DNA of 36,213 nt from NCBI GenBank assembly GCA_028695935.1, contig JAQVHY010000015.1, positions 1 through 36,213 of the forward strand, in the 5' to 3' direction. Below the pieces are notes generated by a model that made no database searches, was not told the DNA's origin, and saw only the letters and a list, made by a program, of their open reading frames with translations. Source of the stretch: Desulfobacca sp. (lineage in GTDB: Bacteria; Desulfobacterota; Desulfobaccia; Desulfobaccales; Desulfobaccaceae). Both the position numbers and the translations under genes were made by a program. This document shows positions 216 through 6,323 of the stretch, one piece after another. Position 1 is the first letter of the stretch; every line of letters begins with the position of its first letter.

Positions 216-590
216 TTAGGCTTTCCACAGCCCATGCAGGTTACAGTATTCCCGGGCCGTAATCTGATCGGCATCGATTTTAAAAGTGGCTTCCGGAGCC
301 TCACCAGGCTTGAGGAACTGCCGGTACGCCTTGCCATCGGCAATGACTTCCACCCACTCGATATAATGCTTTTCTTCCATGGGATGCGGTACACTGCCAA
401 CCTTGACCTTGAAACCGCCGGCGATTTTTTCGATTACCGGCACATGCTTCTCTTTGGCCGCATCCACCGTGTTCTCCGCGAACAGCTTCATGGGCTGGCC
501 GCAGCATACCAGTTCTCCGGCGCCGGCATGAACCATCTCCACGATGTTCCCACAGACGCCACATTTATAAATTTGCAGTAGCTCGGTCAT
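216..590 (-). CDS. dfx: Desulfoferrodoxin (superoxide reductase, two iron centres)
   Basis: This 124-residue protein reduces superoxide to hydrogen peroxide in the cytoplasm without producing oxygen, using electrons usually supplied by rubredoxin. The N-terminal desulforedoxin-type domain keeps its four iron ligands, C10, C13, C29 and C30. The neelaredoxin-like domain keeps the catalytic-iron ligands H49, H69, H75, C116 and H119, in the motifs [20 protein letters not shown] and EYCNLHG. Length and spacing fit the two-centre desulfoferrodoxins of sulfate reducers. The start at 590 is chosen because AAAGGAGG lies just upstream of that ATG; an upstream in-frame start adds 12 unlikely residues. 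It is the last gene in a minus-strand run with rubrerythrin and rubredoxin, but a 188-bp gap with an AT-rich palindrome suggests its own promoter. Confidence 0.96.
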
Positions 591-653
591 ATTATGTTCC
601 TCCTTTGAAATTTCCCAGGTAATCATAAGCCCGATTTTATGTTAATTAACAAC

Positions 654-670
654 CAATATAATTATTGATT
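654..670 (-). promoter_or_regulatory. Candidate PerR/Fur-like operator upstream of dfx
   Basis: The AT-rich inverted repeat CAATA-N4-TATTG lies about 65-80 bp upstream of the dfx start. The stretch ATATAATTATTGATT matches roughly two thirds of the PerR box TTATAATNATTATAA. A better match occurs upstream of tpx. This is a motif match only; no regulator gene is in the window. Confidence 0.35.
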
Positions 671-778
671 GACCGATTTCCAGTCTTTGAGAAAAAAATT
701 GTCCGGGGCCTCTTCCCGAAGCTACCCTAAACAGCAGTCGGATCAACCCAAAAGCGCCTAGTTTTAGAAACCATTTGG

Positions 779-1273
779 TCAATCAATTATGATGAAGTTT
801 TTCTTTTGGGCCTTGCACACCGGGCAGACATCAGGGGGTTCGCCTTCCACGGTATAGCCACAGACCGGGCAGATATGGACGTCGACCAGGGTTTGGTTAT
901 CCAGGTGGTCCAAGGCCTGCTGATACAAGGCGGCGTGGATCTTCTCCACTTCATTGGCGTATCGGAAAGTCTGGGCCGCCCGCTTATTACCTTCGGCCTC
1001 GGCCTCGCTGATCATCTGGGGATACATGCTCATAAACTCATGGGTCTCCCCGGAGATGGCTTCTTGCAGGTTTTCTTTAGTAGATTTGATGGCATCTAAA
1101 GCCCGCAGATGGTTATGGGCATGGATGGTTTCGGCTTCGGCCGCGGCCCGAAACAAGCGGGCGGTACGGGGATAGCCTTCTTTATCGGCCTTTTTGGCAA
1201 AGGCTAAATACTTGCGGTTGGCCTGCGATTCTCCGGCAAAGGCCTCCATCAGATTCTCACTGGTCTTGCTCAT
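779..1273 (-). CDS. rbr: Rubrerythrin
   Basis: Rubrerythrin reduces hydrogen peroxide to water in anaerobes, taking electrons from rubredoxin. This 164-residue protein has an N-terminal ferritin-like four-helix domain (about residues 5-125) with the expected diiron carboxylates and histidines, including E15, E48, H51, E110 and H113 (motifs AGESQANRKY, EAETIHAHNH and EVEKIH). It ends in a rubredoxin domain with CPVCGY (C135, C138) and CPVCKA (C150, C153). The ATG at 1273 follows GAGGAGG at good spacing; the longer reading would need a TTG start inside that ribosome site. It lies in a minus-strand run with rubredoxin upstream and desulfoferrodoxin downstream, the usual oxygen-defence grouping in sulfate reducers. 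Confidence 0.96.
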   Translation of the reverse strand: MSKTSENLMEAFAGESQANRKYLAFAKKADKEGYPRTARLFRAAAEAETIHAHNHLRALDAIKSTKENLQEAISGETHEFMSMYPQMISEAEAEGNKRAAQTFRYANEVEKIHAALYQQALDHLDNQTLVDVHICPVCGYTVEGEPPDVCPVCKAQKKNFIIID

Positions 1274-1311
1274 AAAAAGTTTCCTCCTCAATCAATGAGA
1301 TATGCTTTTAA

Positions 1312-1566
1312 TCAATGCTTATGGGGCCAGGGCTCGTCTTCCCGCGTCTCCACCAGATAGCAGAAGCGGCCCCACTCAAATTCCCGATGCGACACCGGAC
1401 AGCGCAGCCTGATTTTGCGCTCATCAACCCCGATCACTAGCCAATCGCCGTGTCGAGGCCCGCTGGCAATATAAATCTTTTCCCCCACCTGAAAAGGGTA
1501 CGGATGGAAAATCACTACCTTGGAAGATGCTTTATCAGTTTCTGGCTGGTCCGTGCGGTCCGACAT
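1312..1566 (-). CDS. Small hypothetical protein, SH3-barrel-like
   Basis: An 84-residue protein of unknown function. After a polar, probably disordered N-terminus of about 18 residues it has a run of short beta-strand-like segments (FQVGEKIYIASGPRHGDWLVIGV, split over residues 25-47, then IRLRCPVSHREFEWGRFCYLVE), which would suit a small SH3- or KOW-like barrel. This fold suggestion is inference. It has a single CP pair and no full metal-binding motif. It lies 75 bp downstream of the zinc-ribbon gene and 38 bp upstream of rubrerythrin on the same strand, so it is probably cotranscribed with the oxidative-stress genes. The ribosome site is weak (AGGGG about 9 bases before ATG). Confidence 0.7.
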   Translation of the reverse strand: MSDRTDQPETDKASSKVVIFHPYPFQVGEKIYIASGPRHGDWLVIGVDERKIRLRCPVSHREFEWGRFCYLVETREDEPWPHKH

Positions 1567-1641
1567 GGTCTTGGCCCCTATCTGGTTATTAAATTTTGGG
1601 GGATCGGTGGCTCCGAGCCGTGGTCATCCTCTGGCCCTAAC

Positions 1642-1857
1642 CTAGCGCTTCAGGGCTTGGAACTTTCCGGTCCAGGAACATTTACAACAATAAGTATCGG
1701 TATTATCCTCAATGGCCGGCAGGTCCGAGCCAGGGTTATTAGGGTTAAAAACGATGTTGCCTTCCTGTAAATCGAACTCGTAGATCTCATATTCTTCGTC
1801 CGGGTCCCGGACATAAAAACTCTTGGAGCCACAAACGGGGCATTTCCTGGTGGCCAT
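1642..1857 (-). CDS. Small zinc-ribbon protein
   Basis: A 71-residue protein with two Cys pairs, CPVC at residues 6-9 and CCKC near residues 57-60, flanking an acidic middle (DPDEEYEIYEFDLQEG). This layout is a one-domain zinc ribbon or rubredoxin-like knuckle that probably binds one Zn or Fe. It begins at an ATG preceded by GGAAGGAGAG, a strong ribosome site. It lies between rubredoxin and the SH3-like gene in a same-strand run. No enzyme signature is present; a role in the redox-stress operon is inferred only from position. Confidence 0.75.
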   Translation of the reverse strand: MATRKCPVCGSKSFYVRDPDEEYEIYEFDLQEGNIVFNPNNPGSDLPAIEDNTDTYCCKCSWTGKFQALKR

Positions 1858-1914
1858 TTTCTCTCCTTCCTTAGCTGAGTTGGCAAAATGTCATTGGTTA
1901 GCTAAGATGCTGGT

Positions 1915-2130
1915 TTAAGCAGATTTTTTCTCCTCCGCCACCGAACCCGGTCCGGCCAGGGGGCGGAACATCTTCTTGCTTACCCCACAGCACGGGCACT
2001 TCCAGTCGTCCGGCAGGTCTTGAAAGCTGGTACCCTTGGGAATTTTGCCTTTTTTATCCCCGCGCTCGGGGTCGTAGATAAACCCGCAATTTGAAGTCTG
2101 GCACTGACACATATCCTCTAATTTGGCCAT
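1915..2130 (-). CDS. Rubredoxin with expanded first knuckle (CX4C)
   Basis: A 71-residue rubredoxin, the small one-iron electron carrier that feeds superoxide reductase and rubrerythrin. The second knuckle is normal ([10 protein letters not shown]45 and C48), and the core motif [11 protein letters not shown] is typical. The first knuckle is unusual: instead of CX2CG it reads CQCQTSNCG, so the ligand before C15 must be C10 (CX4C) or C8 (CX6C). The C-terminus carries an extra Ala/Glu/Lys-rich tail of about 18 residues. The ATG at 2130 follows AAGGAGG; the longer reading starts upstream of that site. It is the first clear redox gene of the minus-strand run toward rubrerythrin and desulfoferrodoxin. 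A 16-bp tandem repeat lies just upstream. Confidence 0.92.
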
Positions 2131-2172
2131 ATTATCCTCCTTATTTTGCCCTGATTTTGGCACAGGGGAATC

Positions 2173-2204
2173 TATTTAGCTAACTACTTATTTAGCTAAC
2201 TACT
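2173..2204 (-). promoter_or_regulatory. Tandem 16-bp repeat with TTAGCTAA palindromes
   Basis: Two perfect head-to-tail copies of TATTTAGCTAACTACT lie 45-75 bp upstream of the rubredoxin start. Each copy contains the palindrome TTAGCTAA, and a further TTAGCTAA is at 1898-1905, between rubredoxin and the zinc-ribbon gene. The spacing suggests paired operator sites for a dimeric regulator, but the regulator is unknown. Confidence 0.4.
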
Positions 2205-2253
2205 TATAAATAGCTGTTATTTTATGATTAAGGCCGCAAGATCAACTTCTATC

Positions 2254-2424
2254 TCACCAAGAGGCCCCGCCGGGCGGGCAACCTGGAGAACAGGTGGAAT
2301 CCTGGGGCCATCCGGAACTGCTGGCCGGCGGGCCGGCCGGTTTGATGATAGGCTTGTTGGTTTCCTGGGAACAACCGGCCAGAAACAAAAAGATCATCAA
2401 CCCTAAGCACCAGAAAAATTTCAT
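2254..2424 (-). CDS. Small predicted lipoprotein
   Basis: A 56-residue open frame starts at an ATG preceded by AGAAGGAG. It begins MKFFWCLGLMIFLFLAGCSQ, a classic lipoprotein signal with a hydrophobic core and the lipobox LAGC, so C18 would be the lipidated residue. The mature part is about 38 residues, rich in Pro, Gly and Ser, with two further Cys. No domain is recognisable. It lies upstream of rubredoxin on the same strand, with the tandem repeat region between them. A longer overlapping frame in another phase has no such signal and is judged spurious. Confidence 0.7.
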   Translation of the reverse strand: MKFFWCLGLMIFLFLAGCSQETNKPIIKPAGPPASSSGWPQDSTCSPGCPPGGASW

Positions 2425-2494
2425 GGTTAACTCCTTCTGAAAGATTCGCGATTATTTTTTTCAGATTTCTGATCACCCCAGCCCGAACCAGACT

Positions 2495-3016
2495 TTATTT
2501 TCCCAGCACCTTCTGCAACTGGCGCAGGACGGAGTCATAATCCGGTTCCTCGGTGATTTCTTTAACCAATTGCATGTATCTAATAGTACCCGCGCCATCG
2601 ATGATCAGCACCGCCCGGGCCAGCAGTCGTAATTCCTTGATTAACAACCCGTAGGCCAAACCAAAGGCGGCCTGCCGATGATCAGACAGGGTTTTCACCC
2701 GGGTAACGCCCGAAGCACCGCACCAGCGTTTTTGCGCAAAAGGCAGATCCATGCTGATGGTTAAGATCGGTACTTCCGGGCCTAAACTGGCCGCTTCGTC
2801 GTTAAACCGGCGGGTTTCAATATCACAAACCGGGGTGTCCAGCGAGGGCACCGAGGCGATAATGCAGACCTGATCCCGCCAATCGGACAACTTTACCGGG
2901 GCTAAATCATTATTGAGAAGCTCTACATCTGAGGCCTGATCCCCCACTTTGACCTCATCGCCGACCAGGGTTAACGGCGTGCCCTGAAAAGTTATCATAC
3001 CCGGTCGCTCCGCCAT
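2495..3016 (-). CDS. tpx: Thiol peroxidase (Tpx, atypical 2-Cys peroxiredoxin)
   Basis: This 173-residue peroxiredoxin reduces hydrogen peroxide and alkyl hydroperoxides using a peroxidatic and a resolving Cys and thioredoxin. The family motif PSLDTPVCDIETRRFN places the peroxidatic Cys at C64, and the resolving Cys is C99 in FAQKRWCGASG. Opening residues MITFQGTPLTLVG are typical of Tpx. The ATG at 3016 follows GAGGAG with 8-bp spacing, so 20 residues of the longer reading are dropped. The gene has its own upstream region with a strong PerR/Fur-like palindrome at 3141-3156, which fits peroxide regulation. It extends the neighbouring superoxide/peroxide defence block. Confidence 0.95.
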   Translation of the reverse strand: MAERPGMITFQGTPLTLVGDEVKVGDQASDVELLNNDLAPVKLSDWRDQVCIIASVPSLDTPVCDIETRRFNDEAASLGPEVPILTISMDLPFAQKRWCGASGVTRVKTLSDHRQAAFGLAYGLLIKELRLLARAVLIIDGAGTIRYMQLVKEITEEPDYDSVLRQLQKVLGK

Positions 3017-3283: not shown

Positions 3284-3312
3284 TTGACAAATTTCTAGGG
3301 AAGTTATATTGT
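3284..3312 (+). promoter_or_regulatory. Sigma70-type promoter of the RiPP-like operon
   Basis: A perfect -35 box TTGACA (3284-3289), a 17-bp spacer and a -10 box TATTGT (3307-3312) lie about 75 bp upstream of the 20-residue peptide gene. The expected transcription start is near 3319, directly before a palindromic operator. The 3017-3283 stretch upstream is otherwise AT-rich and non-coding. Confidence 0.65.
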
Positions 3313-3321
3313 TTAGTAACT

Positions 3322-3336
3322 GTCACACGAAGTGAC
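3322..3336 (+). promoter_or_regulatory. Operator-like inverted repeat GTCAC-N5-GTGAC
   Basis: A perfect inverted repeat, GTCAC at 3322-3326 and GTGAC at 3332-3336, overlaps the predicted transcription start of the peptide gene. This is a typical place for a repressor site. No regulator gene is adjacent, so its identity is unknown. Confidence 0.4.
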
Positions 3337-3385
3337 CAAACCTAAAAATTTAATTTTTTAAATGCTCCAAGAAGGAGGGAAAATC

Positions 3386-3448
3386 ATGAAGATTAAGAAA
3401 GTCGAGAAATCCTCATCCGGGCTGTGCAAGTGTAAAAAATCTTGCTAG
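3386..3448 (+). CDS. 20-residue Cys-containing peptide, putative RiPP precursor
   Basis: The frame encodes MKIKKVEKSSSGLCKCKKSC and is preceded by AGGAGG five bases before ATG, in a region with a near-consensus promoter. It has a Lys-rich N-terminal half that could act as a very short leader, then SSSG and three Cys in the pattern CXCX3C at the C-terminus. It is followed by a strong hairpin and then, about 100 bp on, a radical SAM-SPASM enzyme with an RRE-like segment. Such enzymes modify small Cys- or Ser-containing peptides, so this peptide is the likely substrate. That role is inferred from size, Cys content, translation signals and position. The alternative is a short leader peptide that controls the downstream genes. 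Confidence 0.6.
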   Translation: MKIKKVEKSSSGLCKCKKSC

Positions 3449-3470
3449 CCTTTAACCTGGCGGACACCAG

Positions 3471-3494
3471 AGGGGACGGTTGCCGTCCCCTTTT
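3471..3494 (+). terminator. Hairpin terminator/attenuator between peptide and maturase
   Basis: A 9-bp perfect stem (AGGGGACGG with CCGTCCCCT) with a 3-base loop is followed by only four T residues. It follows the peptide stop by 22 bp and precedes the maturase by about 55 bp. Partial termination here would give more peptide message than enzyme message, as is common in RiPP operons. Confidence 0.65.
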
Positions 3495-3548
3495 GCGCGT
3501 TCAGGGGCTTATGTTGTGGTCTAATCCGGTTATCATAGTGGGTCGAGC

Positions 3549-5078
3549 ATGCGTTCCTTGATCTGTCGTCGTCACTGTCAGTTTTTCAAGCCTGCGGCTG
3601 ACGAACCGGAAAAATGTCTGGGTTACGAATTCCTGGCGGCCTGGGTCAGGCTGGAACCCGGATTGGCCGCGGCGCTGGATCAACTGCCGCCCGGATCGGC
3701 CCCGGAGACCGAACAACTGGCCCAGGTGTCAAAGCTTTTGTGCCCCCGCTGCGTATTCCGGCTACATGGCTGCGATTATGCTGATCCGGCGGGGCCAGCC
3801 GACGCCTCGCCCTGCGGCGGTCTAATGGCCTTAGCTGACCTGCTGAGCCGTGGCCTGATTCGACTGCCCGAGATTAAAGCAGCCTGGGAGCGGCTGTTGG
3901 ACGGGTTTTACCTGCGTCTGGCCGAACATGCCTCGCTGCGTTTATTAGAAAAACCCTATCTTTATGACCGCCTCTCTGATGAGCTCTATGAGCTTAACCA
4001 GGAGGGCTTTGACTGGTTGGCCAGGTGCGACGGCACTCGATCCGGCCTGGCGGCTCAGGCCGATCCCGAGTTCTTGGATTTTCTGTTGGCCGAATCGCTG
4101 GTGGCGGTTTGTACTGAGCCCCGTCCACGCCCCCTGCATCTGCGTCAATCGCCCTTGCCTTCCCTGCGTTATCTGGAGCTCATGCTCACCGCGCGCTGCA
4201 ACCTGCGCTGTGTCCACTGTTATCTGGGTGACCAGGGTCACACCGACCTGCCCCTGGCCAGCGTCCTGGCCGCGCTCCAGGAATTGGAGGCCATGCAAGG
4301 TCTGCGCGCCTTGCTGTCCGGCGGCGAAGCCCTGTTGTACCCCCATTGGGAAGAATTAAACGCCCGGTTGCGCGACTTTGAGTTACGCTTTATCCTGCTG
4401 TCTAATGGCACCCTGCTGGACGGTGACACCCTGTCTCGCCTGCAAGTGCATGAGATTCAAATCAGTCTGGATGGCCTGGAAGCCGGTCACGAGTTAATCC
4501 GGGGGCGAGGCACCTGGTCCCGCACCGTCGCCAACCTGCAGGCTGCCCTGGCGCGGGGGCTTATGGTCTCGGTGGCCACCATGATCCATGCCGGTAACCA
4601 GCAGGAATTGGCGGAATTAGGGCAGTTGCTCCAGGAATGGGGGGTCCGGGAATGGGGTCTGGATGTTCCCTGTTTTACCGGTCGGCTGGCGCAGCATCCC
4701 GAACTTTATCTGGACCCGGCCCAGGCTGCTCCTTATCTAAACCTGGGCTTTGGCGGCTCGGATCACGGTAAAGTCGGAGACTTTGCTTGCGGTATTCATC
4801 ACTTAGCTGTCTTGCCGACGGGACAGGTGGCCAAATGTGGGTTGTTCGCCCACCGTCCGGTGGGCCACGTCCAAGAAGGATTGGAAACCTGTTGGTTACG
4901 GCTGCCGCGCCTGAAACTGAGCGAATTAGAGTGTGCGGGCTGTCCTTATTTAACCGAATGTCGGGGCGGCTGCCGGTTCCGAGCCGGGGAAGGACTGGCC
5001 CCGGATCCGGTGATGTGTGCCTTATATGGTATAGATCCAAAAAAAATAAAGAGGTTAACTGATGATCAAGATTTATGA
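3549..5078 (+). CDS. Radical SAM-SPASM peptide maturase with RRE-like domain
   Basis: A 509-residue enzyme expected to modify a peptide through S-adenosylmethionine radical chemistry. An N-terminal Cys-rich part carries C6, C10, C23, C65, C68, C75 and C89. Residues about 130-190 resemble a PqqD-like peptide-recognition (RRE) domain, with the LYELNQEGFDWLARCDG pattern. The radical SAM core has CX3CX2C at C217, C221 and C224 and the SGGE motif near 257-260. The C-terminal SPASM domain shows C414-X10-G-X4-C430, then C462-X2-C465-X5-C471-X3-C475 and C490, which should bind two auxiliary clusters. The ATG has a weak ribosome site. The gene overlaps the cupin by 17 bp. The substrate is probably the 20-residue peptide at 3386; the modification made cannot be told from sequence. 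Confidence 0.9.
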   Translation: MRSLICRRHCQFFKPAADEPEKCLGYEFLAAWVRLEPGLAAALDQLPPGSAPETEQLAQVSKLLCPRCVFRLHGCDYADPAGPADASPCGGLMALADLLSRGLIRLPEIKAAWERLLDGFYLRLAEHASLRLLEKPYLYDRLSDELYELNQEGFDWLARCDGTRSGLAAQADPEFLDFLLAESLVAVCTEPRPRPLHLRQSPLPSLRYLELMLTARCNLRCVHCYLGDQGHTDLPLASVLAALQELEAMQGLRALLSGGEALLYPHWEELNARLRDFELRFILLSNGTLLDGDTLSRLQVHEIQISLDGLEAGHELIRGRGTWSRTVANLQAALARGLMVSVATMIHAGNQQELAELGQLLQEWGVREWGLDVPCFTGRLAQHPELYLDPAQAAPYLNLGFGGSDHGKVGDFACGIHHLAVLPTGQVAKCGLFAHRPVGHVQEGLETCWLRLPRLKLSELECAGCPYLTECRGGCRFRAGEGLAPDPVMCALYGIDPKKIKRLTDDQDL

Positions 5079-5409
5079 CCTGTTAAGCCGGGCCCGGGCT
5101 GAAGGCGGTGAAACCGTGCTCGGCCGGGATGATCTGGACACTCACGCCTGCTATCTCATTTTTGGCTGCTTGGAGCCGGGTCAGGGTGGCCGGGTGCTCA
5201 AGCCCGGTGAGGGCCACGAGGAAATCATCTGCCTGGTTAGCGGCCAGGCCGTGCTAATCAGCCCTGAAGGCCGCCTGGATCTTAAACCGGGCCAGGCCTT
5301 CCATCTGGTCGGGGATGCCACCTACACCTTGGAAAACCTCGGGAGCGAGCCGGCTATCTATCTCGCCGCCGGGGGCCATAGCCCGGGTCACCATCATCAT
5401 CATCATTGA
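5062..5409 (+). CDS. Small cupin protein with natural hexahistidine tail
   Basis: A 115-residue single-domain cupin. The cupin motif is visible around KPGEGHEEIICLVSG, followed by a second strand set near LDLKPGQAFHLVGD. The metal-binding set is partial: one His and adjacent Glu residues rather than HXH. The C-terminus ends HSPGHHHHHH, a native poly-His tail that may bind Ni, Zn or Co. The start overlaps the maturase by 17 bp with GAGG in front, and its stop overlaps the transporter start (TGATG), so the three are translationally coupled. Its job in the locus is unknown; metal handling or product binding are both possible. Confidence 0.85.
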   Translation: MIKIYDLLSRARAEGGETVLGRDDLDTHACYLIFGCLEPGQGGRVLKPGEGHEEIICLVSGQAVLISPEGRLDLKPGQAFHLVGDATYTLENLGSEPAIYLAAGGHSPGHHHHHH

Positions 5410-6323
5410 TGGCCAGCATGCCACGCCTCTGGCGTAACCGCGATTTTTTAATGCTCCTGGCCCTGACCTTGGGGTTGGGAGCCGGTCAAGGGGCCGCCTG
5501 GACCGAGGTCCTGGTCTTGCCCGCCCTGGCAGTAGTAATGACGCTGTCCACCATGGGGGTGCCGGGCCAGGTCTTCCGTTCGCCCCGCGCCCTGATTTAC
5601 CCTATTTTGGTCGGATTAGCTTTGAACTTCGTGGTCTTGGGGGGATTACTGCTCGGGCTTAATCTTCTACTGATTGGTGATGACGCCCTCTCCCAGGGCT
5701 TTGTCCTGCTGGTCGCGGTCCCGCCGGCGGTGGCGGTCATCCCCTTTACCAGCCTGCTGCACGGCAACAGCACCTTTTCCTTGATCGCCACCATCGGCGC
5801 TTATCTGGGAGCCTTGATTATCACCCCGCTGATTGCCGTGGCGCTGTTAGGAACGGCGTTCATCCATCCGGTTAAATTAATCCTGGTGCTGATCGAATTA
5901 ATCCTGATCCCGCTGATCGTCTCCCGCCTGTTACTCTGGTCCGGCCTGTCGGGACGGCTGGAGCCGATCAAAGGGGCCATCACCAACTGGTCTTTCTTCC
6001 TCATCACCTATACCATCGTCGGGCTAAACCAGGAGCTATTCTTAAGGCAACCTTTGACCCTACTGCCGGTAGCCCTCATCGCCCTGGCCAGCACCTTTAT
6101 CCTGGGAACGGTGATCGACCGCCTGGCCCGCCTGGCGGGGGTTGAGCCGCCCACCATAACCAGCCTGATGTTGCTGGGGACGCTGAAAAATTATGCCCTG
6201 GCCGGGGGTCTGGCCCTGACCCTGTTCAGCCAGCAGACCGCAGTGCCAGCCGCGGTATCAACCATTTTTATGATTGTCTATATTATCTGGCTCGGTTTTC
6301 AGAAGCGGCATTCGGCAAAATAG
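5409..6323 (+). CDS. BASS/SBF-like 10-TM transporter
   Basis: A 304-residue integral membrane protein with about 9-10 hydrophobic segments. It resembles the bile acid:sodium symporter / Acr3-like (BART) superfamily. The segment VAVPPAVAVIPFTSLLHGN resembles the broken-helix motif in the first repeat, and TLKNYALAGGLALTLF the equivalent in the second. The ATG at 5409 overlaps the cupin stop as TGATG, so it is the last gene of the coupled operon. The substrate is not evident; in this context it might export a modified peptide fragment or move a small anion or metal complex. Family call is fairly secure, substrate unknown. Confidence 0.8.
   Translation: MASMPRLWRNRDFLMLLALTLGLGAGQGAAWTEVLVLPALAVVMTLSTMGVPGQVFRSPRALIYPILVGLALNFVVLGGLLLGLNLLLIGDDALSQGFVLLVAVPPAVAVIPFTSLLHGNSTFSLIATIGAYLGALIITPLIAVALLGTAFIHPVKLILVLIELILIPLIVSRLLLWSGLSGRLEPIKGAITNWSFFLITYTIVGLNQELFLRQPLTLLPVALIALASTFILGTVIDRLARLAGVEPPTITSLMLLGTLKNYALAGGLALTLFSQQTAVPAAVSTIFMIVYIIWLGFQKRHSAK

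Follow-up and report, generated by a model that had tools for sequence, protein, structure and literature searches.

What could a gene for only 20 residues be doing in front of a radical S-adenosylmethionine (SAM) enzyme? The question is raised by a locus of Desulfobacca sp., in a window of 36,213 nucleotides that makes up the whole stretch analysed (contig JAQVHY010000015.1 of assembly GCA_028695935.1; contig C65 of a 3.17 Mb genome). Here, a peptide gene (3386-3448, on the + strand, as are all the operon features given below) translates to MKIKKVEKSSSGLCKCKKSC and then a stop, with the Shine-Dalgarno site AAGGAGGG lying 6 nt 5' of the open reading frame (ORF), and inspection of the translated ORF gave no signal sequence on the 20-aa precursor. 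It is followed by genes for a maturase (3549-5078), a cupin (5062-5409) and a transporter (5409-6323), which overlap end to end. The initial annotation had described a layout of promoter, operator, peptide with CXCX3C, hairpin, a maturase composed of a RiPP recognition element (RRE; RiPP, ribosomally synthesized and post-translationally modified peptide), a radical SAM domain and a SPASM domain, then cupin and BASS-like transporter, the last three overlapping, and these elements can be located in the sequence. Based on the comparisons below, we propose that the peptide, which we call the CKC peptide, and its maturase represent a RiPP family of the radical SAM/SPASM kind whose precursor is unusually short and unusually conserved, possibly with a bufferin-like metal function.

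The evidence that carries this proposal is the joint occurrence of peptide and maturase. When 395 genomes of the window's phylum were searched for the maturase with a threshold of 1e-30, it was found in 38, with best E-values from 2e-261 to 8e-60 and none from there to the threshold. The peptide was sought with a pattern of CKC, three residues, C and a stop, whose degenerate last codon also admitted TGG; 77 genomes gave a match, among them all the 38 with the maturase. In every one of these 38 a peptide with an MxI-type basic leader can be read from the sequence, usually near the maturase; in G004, G034 and G334 the peptide is present though away from it. Of the matches in the 39 other pattern-positive genomes, 18 of the more plausible ones were fetched, and none has the leader; the rest lack a Ser ahead of the last Cys, contain an in-frame stop or have TGG where the stop should be. 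The peptide is then present in 38/38 genomes with the maturase versus none found in the 357 others, giving a Fisher p of 7e-54 that ignores phylogeny, related genomes being non-independent. On these genome counts the pairing of peptide and maturase is well supported. A lack of conservation of the peptide beside orthologous maturases was what would have spoken against the RiPP-like operon with a 20-residue precursor that had been suggested for the window; the peptide is conserved there, and across phyla as well, so that the suggestion stands for peptide and maturase, with the BASS transporter falling outside the conserved system.

The system reaches well beyond the window's phylum. A scan of GTDB genomes gave relatives of the maturase in Desulfobacterota, Nitrospirota, Actinomycetota, Archaeoglobus, Geoglobus and Methanoperedens, more distantly in Lokiarchaeota, and also in bins labelled Rokubacteria and Thermoleophilia, while none was found in viral contigs. 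It is noted that most of these records are metagenome-assembled genomes, of which single ones are possibly misbinned, and weight is thus placed on the agreement of many. Most of these relatives are accompanied by the peptide, either close by or at another place in the genome; among the archaea, for example, Geoglobus has MKVKKIERRKIGICKCNVSC and Archaeoglobus has MKIEKVRKESGICKCNASCA. Of the 70 distinct peptide genes, which come from Desulfobacterota, Nitrospirota, Actinomycetota and archaea, 64 have a product of exactly 20 residues and 68 have a Shine-Dalgarno-like site, and the differences between similar genes fall mainly on the third codon position (430/358/1208 at positions 1/2/3). Within the 64 peptides of 20 residues, I3 and K5 are invariant, S19 is present in 60, and the one exception at C14, K15, C16 and C20 is the peptide of Archaeoglobus, where the core lies one residue earlier. 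These comparisons show that the peptide is a genuine one, that purifying selection acts on it and that it is tied to the maturase. As in RiPP systems generally, a small precursor gene appears genetically tied to its modifying enzyme, here in 38 of 38 genomes and with 70 peptides. Such near-invariance suggests a basic function in the cell and not one in warfare. No convincing selenocysteine (TGA) version of the core was found at the loci that lack a local peptide; a candidate '3 TGA' case in G097 was rejected, since it fits the gap between a separate Cys-domain gene and the maturase gene. In Lokiarchaeota, locus L088 has, from 2528 and near a distant maturase relative, an ORF MKIVKKEKKKIEAVSCKCGGDACISLSCKCGGDAC with two copies of an SCKCGGDAC motif.

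What kind of enzyme is paired with the peptide? The maturase has 509 aa, and its structure model from AlphaFold2 (AF2) has a mean predicted local distance difference test score (pLDDT) of 92. The best Foldseek matches of the model, SkfB, SuiB and CteB, are all peptide maturases, with about 13-21% identity to it in the structural alignments, and the modelled fold supports the RRE-radical SAM-SPASM make-up that had been assigned to the enzyme from the start. That account overlooked an extra N-terminal three-cysteine domain of about 115 residues (3549-3893), with a CxxC...C core of invariant C65, C68 and C89 and no Pfam match above the cut-off. In many relatives, including archaea, this domain is a separate small gene, and in some lineages the separate protein shrinks to a small core in which C65, C68 and C89 are kept. 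Then comes the PqqD-like RRE (residues 121-188, 3909-4112), with beta strands and helices in the model. The Pfam PqqD model gave no match to it; comparison with PqqD proteins by hhalign, a single profile comparison, gave 81% probability and E 1.2e-5. The AF2 model, the Foldseek matches to SuiB and CteB and the hhalign comparison together point to a leader-binding RRE on the maturase. Radical_SAM is matched above its Pfam cut-off, the CxxxCxxC of the radical SAM domain (C217, C221 and C224; 4197-4220) is invariant in 39 aligned sequences, and so are seven cysteines of the SPASM domain (C414, C430, C462, C465, C471, C475 and C490; 4788-5018). The CxxxCxxC motif together with the seven-cysteine SPASM domain marks the protein as a predicted radical SAM/SPASM peptide maturase. 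It falls into no curated family: neither the maturase nor any of the relatives scanned reaches the cut-off of an NCBIfam model, the maturase is below the cut-offs of the PqqE and MftC equivalogs, and all listed matches to the AlbA, SkfB, PapB and StsB families are far below theirs.

Comparison with known systems places the CKC peptide among small ribosomal peptides modified by a maturase of the RRE-radical SAM-SPASM fold, as are the sactipeptides and ranthipeptides (SkfB, CteB) and streptide (SuiB). By contrast with these, the precursor here has 20 aa and is nearly invariant across phyla, the maturase has the extra three-cysteine domain, a cupin is often present and there is no conserved exporter. 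The precursors of pyrroloquinoline quinone (PQQ) and mycofactocin are very short as well, and both pathways share with the present system a PqqD-like domain, a SPASM enzyme and a conserved physiological product; they differ in that no conserved set of protease, oxidase and dehydrogenase was seen here and that the CKCxxSC core has no Glu-Tyr or Val-Tyr pair. The SbtM maturase, which acts on the Cys/Sec peptide SbtA in the thio(seleno)oxazole system (TIGR04082; PMC11002830), is also a radical SAM-SPASM enzyme of similar size from related bacteria. Identity with SbtM was considered and rejected, the TIGR04082 score being 51.7 against a cut-off of 350 bits; moreover, G177 and G079 carry a true SbtM at another locus besides the maturase of the CKC peptide. 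Finally, bufferins are copper-chelating RiPPs that MNIO enzymes modify and most of which have a Sec signal peptide (PMC12452194); they too have Cys motifs and a link to copper stress, whereas the system here has a radical SAM enzyme instead of an MNIO (DUF692) and a precursor with no signal peptide. Neither the peptide motif nor a radical SAM RiPP from Archaeoglobus was found in a literature search, which covered few subscription papers, so that an earlier mention is possible. Since such short peptides are rarely annotated and this one has no NCBIfam or Pfam match, the system may have been overlooked despite its occurrence in several bacterial phyla and in archaea; the 20-residue consensus offers a direct tool to locate it in other genomes.

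We propose the following model for this small RiPP system, whose hosts are mainly anaerobic bacteria and archaea. A short self-terminated transcript would give the 20-residue precursor, in which a basic leader, MKIKKVxK, precedes the core GLCKCKxSC. The leader would be held by the RRE of the maturase, and the radical SAM/SPASM enzyme, aided by the three-cysteine domain, would modify the core, presumably by acting at its cysteines or through them, with the cupin serving as an accessory metal protein or a second tailoring enzyme. The resulting thiol-rich peptide would not leave the cell and would have a conserved physiological function there, most likely to bind a soft metal, Cu(I) or Zn(II), or to hand it on. 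We infer from the sequences that the peptide is the substrate, and likewise the modification chemistry, the metal binding and the role of the cupin. Taken as a whole, the reading of an intracellular, radical-SAM-matured, thiol-rich peptide that most likely binds a soft metal has in our estimate about an even chance, with a redox or cofactor role coming next, because most loci have no metal gene and because rubrerythrin is associated with the system. If the product does bind Cu or Zn, it would be a metal-handling peptide made through a radical SAM enzyme and not through an MNIO or methanobactin enzyme.

The soft-metal reading draws on the metal-type cupin, on CKCH peptides near P-type ATPases and on metal genes at loci such as L170 and L044. 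Five Nitrospirota genomes have a second peptide with a CKCH core, away from the maturase (L252 2664-2726, L253 6697-6759, L254 6001-6063, L255 4348-4410 and L256 6001-6063). A heavy-metal P-type ATPase above its NCBIfam cut-off lies within 5 kb of the CKCH peptide in three of the five (G102, G104 and G113), which by chance would have a probability of about 1e-5 (a rough estimate, with one to few such ATPases per genome). At L252 the CKCH peptide stands in a same-strand run with an ICMT-like protein, a copper-type P-type ATPase and, farther on, a CopA-type multicopper oxidase; the run also has a protein that looks HMA-like by eye, for which Pfam gave no match. L170, of family f16, has an SO_0444 Cu/Zn efflux transporter (407 against a cut-off of 300 bits) and an ArsR/SmtB regulator, genes similar to which occur at L041, L053 and L179 of the same family. 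Locus L044 encodes an ABC binding protein of the Zn/Mn type together with a Fur-family regulator. A more specific form of the reading, in which the product is a 20-residue metallothionein-like, Cu/Zn-binding RiPP of bacteria and archaea with a His-bearing paralogue within copper-resistance clusters, is put forward tentatively, as somewhat doubtful. Several points weigh against the soft-metal reading. The metal genes were counted only after their association with the peptide had been noticed, the loci of f16 belong to one family and hence are not independent, and most Desulfobacterota loci, the window included, have no metal transporter alongside. Many genomes with both peptide and maturase lack the cupin, in a sister species outside the 395-genome sample (G002) the maturase has decayed while the peptide gene next to it is intact, and the oxidative-stress context of the window fits a redox role as well.

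That context leads to the alternative of a cofactor precursor: the peptide would give rise to a redox or catalytic cofactor, similar to PQQ or mycofactocin, for oxidoreductases encoded elsewhere in the genome, with its cysteines rebuilt into the cofactor or serving as a redox couple. On the - strand of the window, superoxide reductase (desulfoferrodoxin), rubrerythrin, rubredoxin and thiol peroxidase lie beside the operon (216-3016), and a rubrerythrin lies within roughly 5 kb of about nine peptide/maturase loci versus about one expected (58 genomes, 5.6 rubrerythrins per genome), though these loci in part share synteny, so that they represent fewer independent events, perhaps five lineages. 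Genes that by eye resemble FAD-dependent pyridine-nucleotide-disulphide oxidoreductases adjoin the peptide at L172, L183, L046 and L167, belonging to two families. The near-invariant sequence and the lack of any exporter seen would also suit a cofactor. No conserved dehydrogenase or protease partner was seen, and the copper-resistance neighbours would be left unexplained; we consider this alternative unlikely, while placing it next after the soft-metal reading.

Since the closest solved folds are SkfB, SuiB and CteB, the peptide has three cysteines and the window has an SBF transporter, it could also be asked whether the product is a thioether-bridged sactipeptide or ranthipeptide, secreted as an antimicrobial or a signal. 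Such a peptide would be expected to vary as arms-race toxins do, but this one hardly varies from Desulfobacterota to archaea; neither a conserved protease or exporter was noticed in the neighbourhoods read nor a conserved immunity gene seen, and the transporter is not conserved. We regard this explanation as quite improbable. We give still less credence to the view that the peptide is a regulator, or a cluster-carrying partner of the maturase, the true substrate being another protein such as the cupin or the separate Cys protein. The invariant CxCxxxC could indeed carry a metal or an Fe-S cluster unmodified, the cupin and the Cys-domain protein are conceivable substrates, and some peptides lie far from the maturase; yet the RRE is a leader-binding domain, the peptide has the form of a leader plus a core, and the cupin is often missing, whereas the peptide is never missing in the 38 genomes with the maturase.

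Turning to the two genes behind the maturase, the first encodes a small metal-type cupin of 115 aa with a GHEE motif, AGGH and a His-rich tail. Its Cupin_2 match is below the Pfam cut-off, and its model (pLDDT 90) has structural matches to TM1459-like and DddK metal cupins. The second encodes a membrane transporter of the SBF/BASS family (PF01758, 24.9 bits against a cut-off of 24.3). Sequence search of both proteins against the PDB gave no matches. The two had been noted as a pairing not recognised from described RiPP classes. The cupin does recur, with a homologue in 31 of the 56 genomes searched, usually adjoining the maturase in Desulfobacterota; the transporter, by tblastn, is intact in the window only, and two sister species with decayed operons retain remnants of it. 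As no relative was found in the other loci besides these two fragments, the transporter was rejected as a conserved component. Judging from this distribution, it is lineage-specific and confined to the window's genus, so that the cupin/BASS pairing appears local to the window's lineage and export by BASS would be no feature of the family. In the decayed operons (L049, G002:C97, 1-610, and L048, G001:C7), internal deletions join the start of the maturase to the end of the transporter, and the Shine-Dalgarno site of the G002 peptide gene is weakened.

How might the peptide be made in larger amount than its enzyme? A sigma-70-like promoter, TTGACA-17 nt-TATTGT, with 10/12 consensus matches, lies in front of the peptide gene at 3284-3312, and a terminator-like hairpin with a T-run lies between the peptide gene and the maturase at 3471-3494. 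The number of promoter-like matches in the region (3 found versus a shuffle mean of 2.1) is not above the shuffle expectation, and the consensus scan omitted the hairpin because its T-run is short. In the related loci that were compared, TTGACA again lies 5' of the peptide, and a GC-rich hairpin with a T-run occurs shortly 3' of the peptide stop in most relatives' loci; it is this recurrence, and not the scan, that makes promoter and terminator credible. The hairpin probably makes the peptide transcript more abundant than that of the enzyme, by giving a short self-terminated RNA with weaker read-through. Note also that an inverted repeat, GTCAC-ACGAA-GTGAC (3322-3336), lies at the expected 5' end of the transcript. 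In six loci of family f1 both arms change, mostly staying complementary, with the loop constant as A-N-GAA, which suggests a 5' mRNA hairpin or an operator; the repeat was not seen in the loci of family f2 that were compared.

A few minor observations concern the placement of the peptide genes. One of the CKCH peptides adjoins a hypE-like gene. Solitary CKC peptide genes away from the maturase occur at L164, L103/L264 and L263, the next gene at L103 looking like a cytochrome c. At L054 / L169 (G349:C231), two peptide genes with identical protein sequence flank a methyltransferase-like gene.

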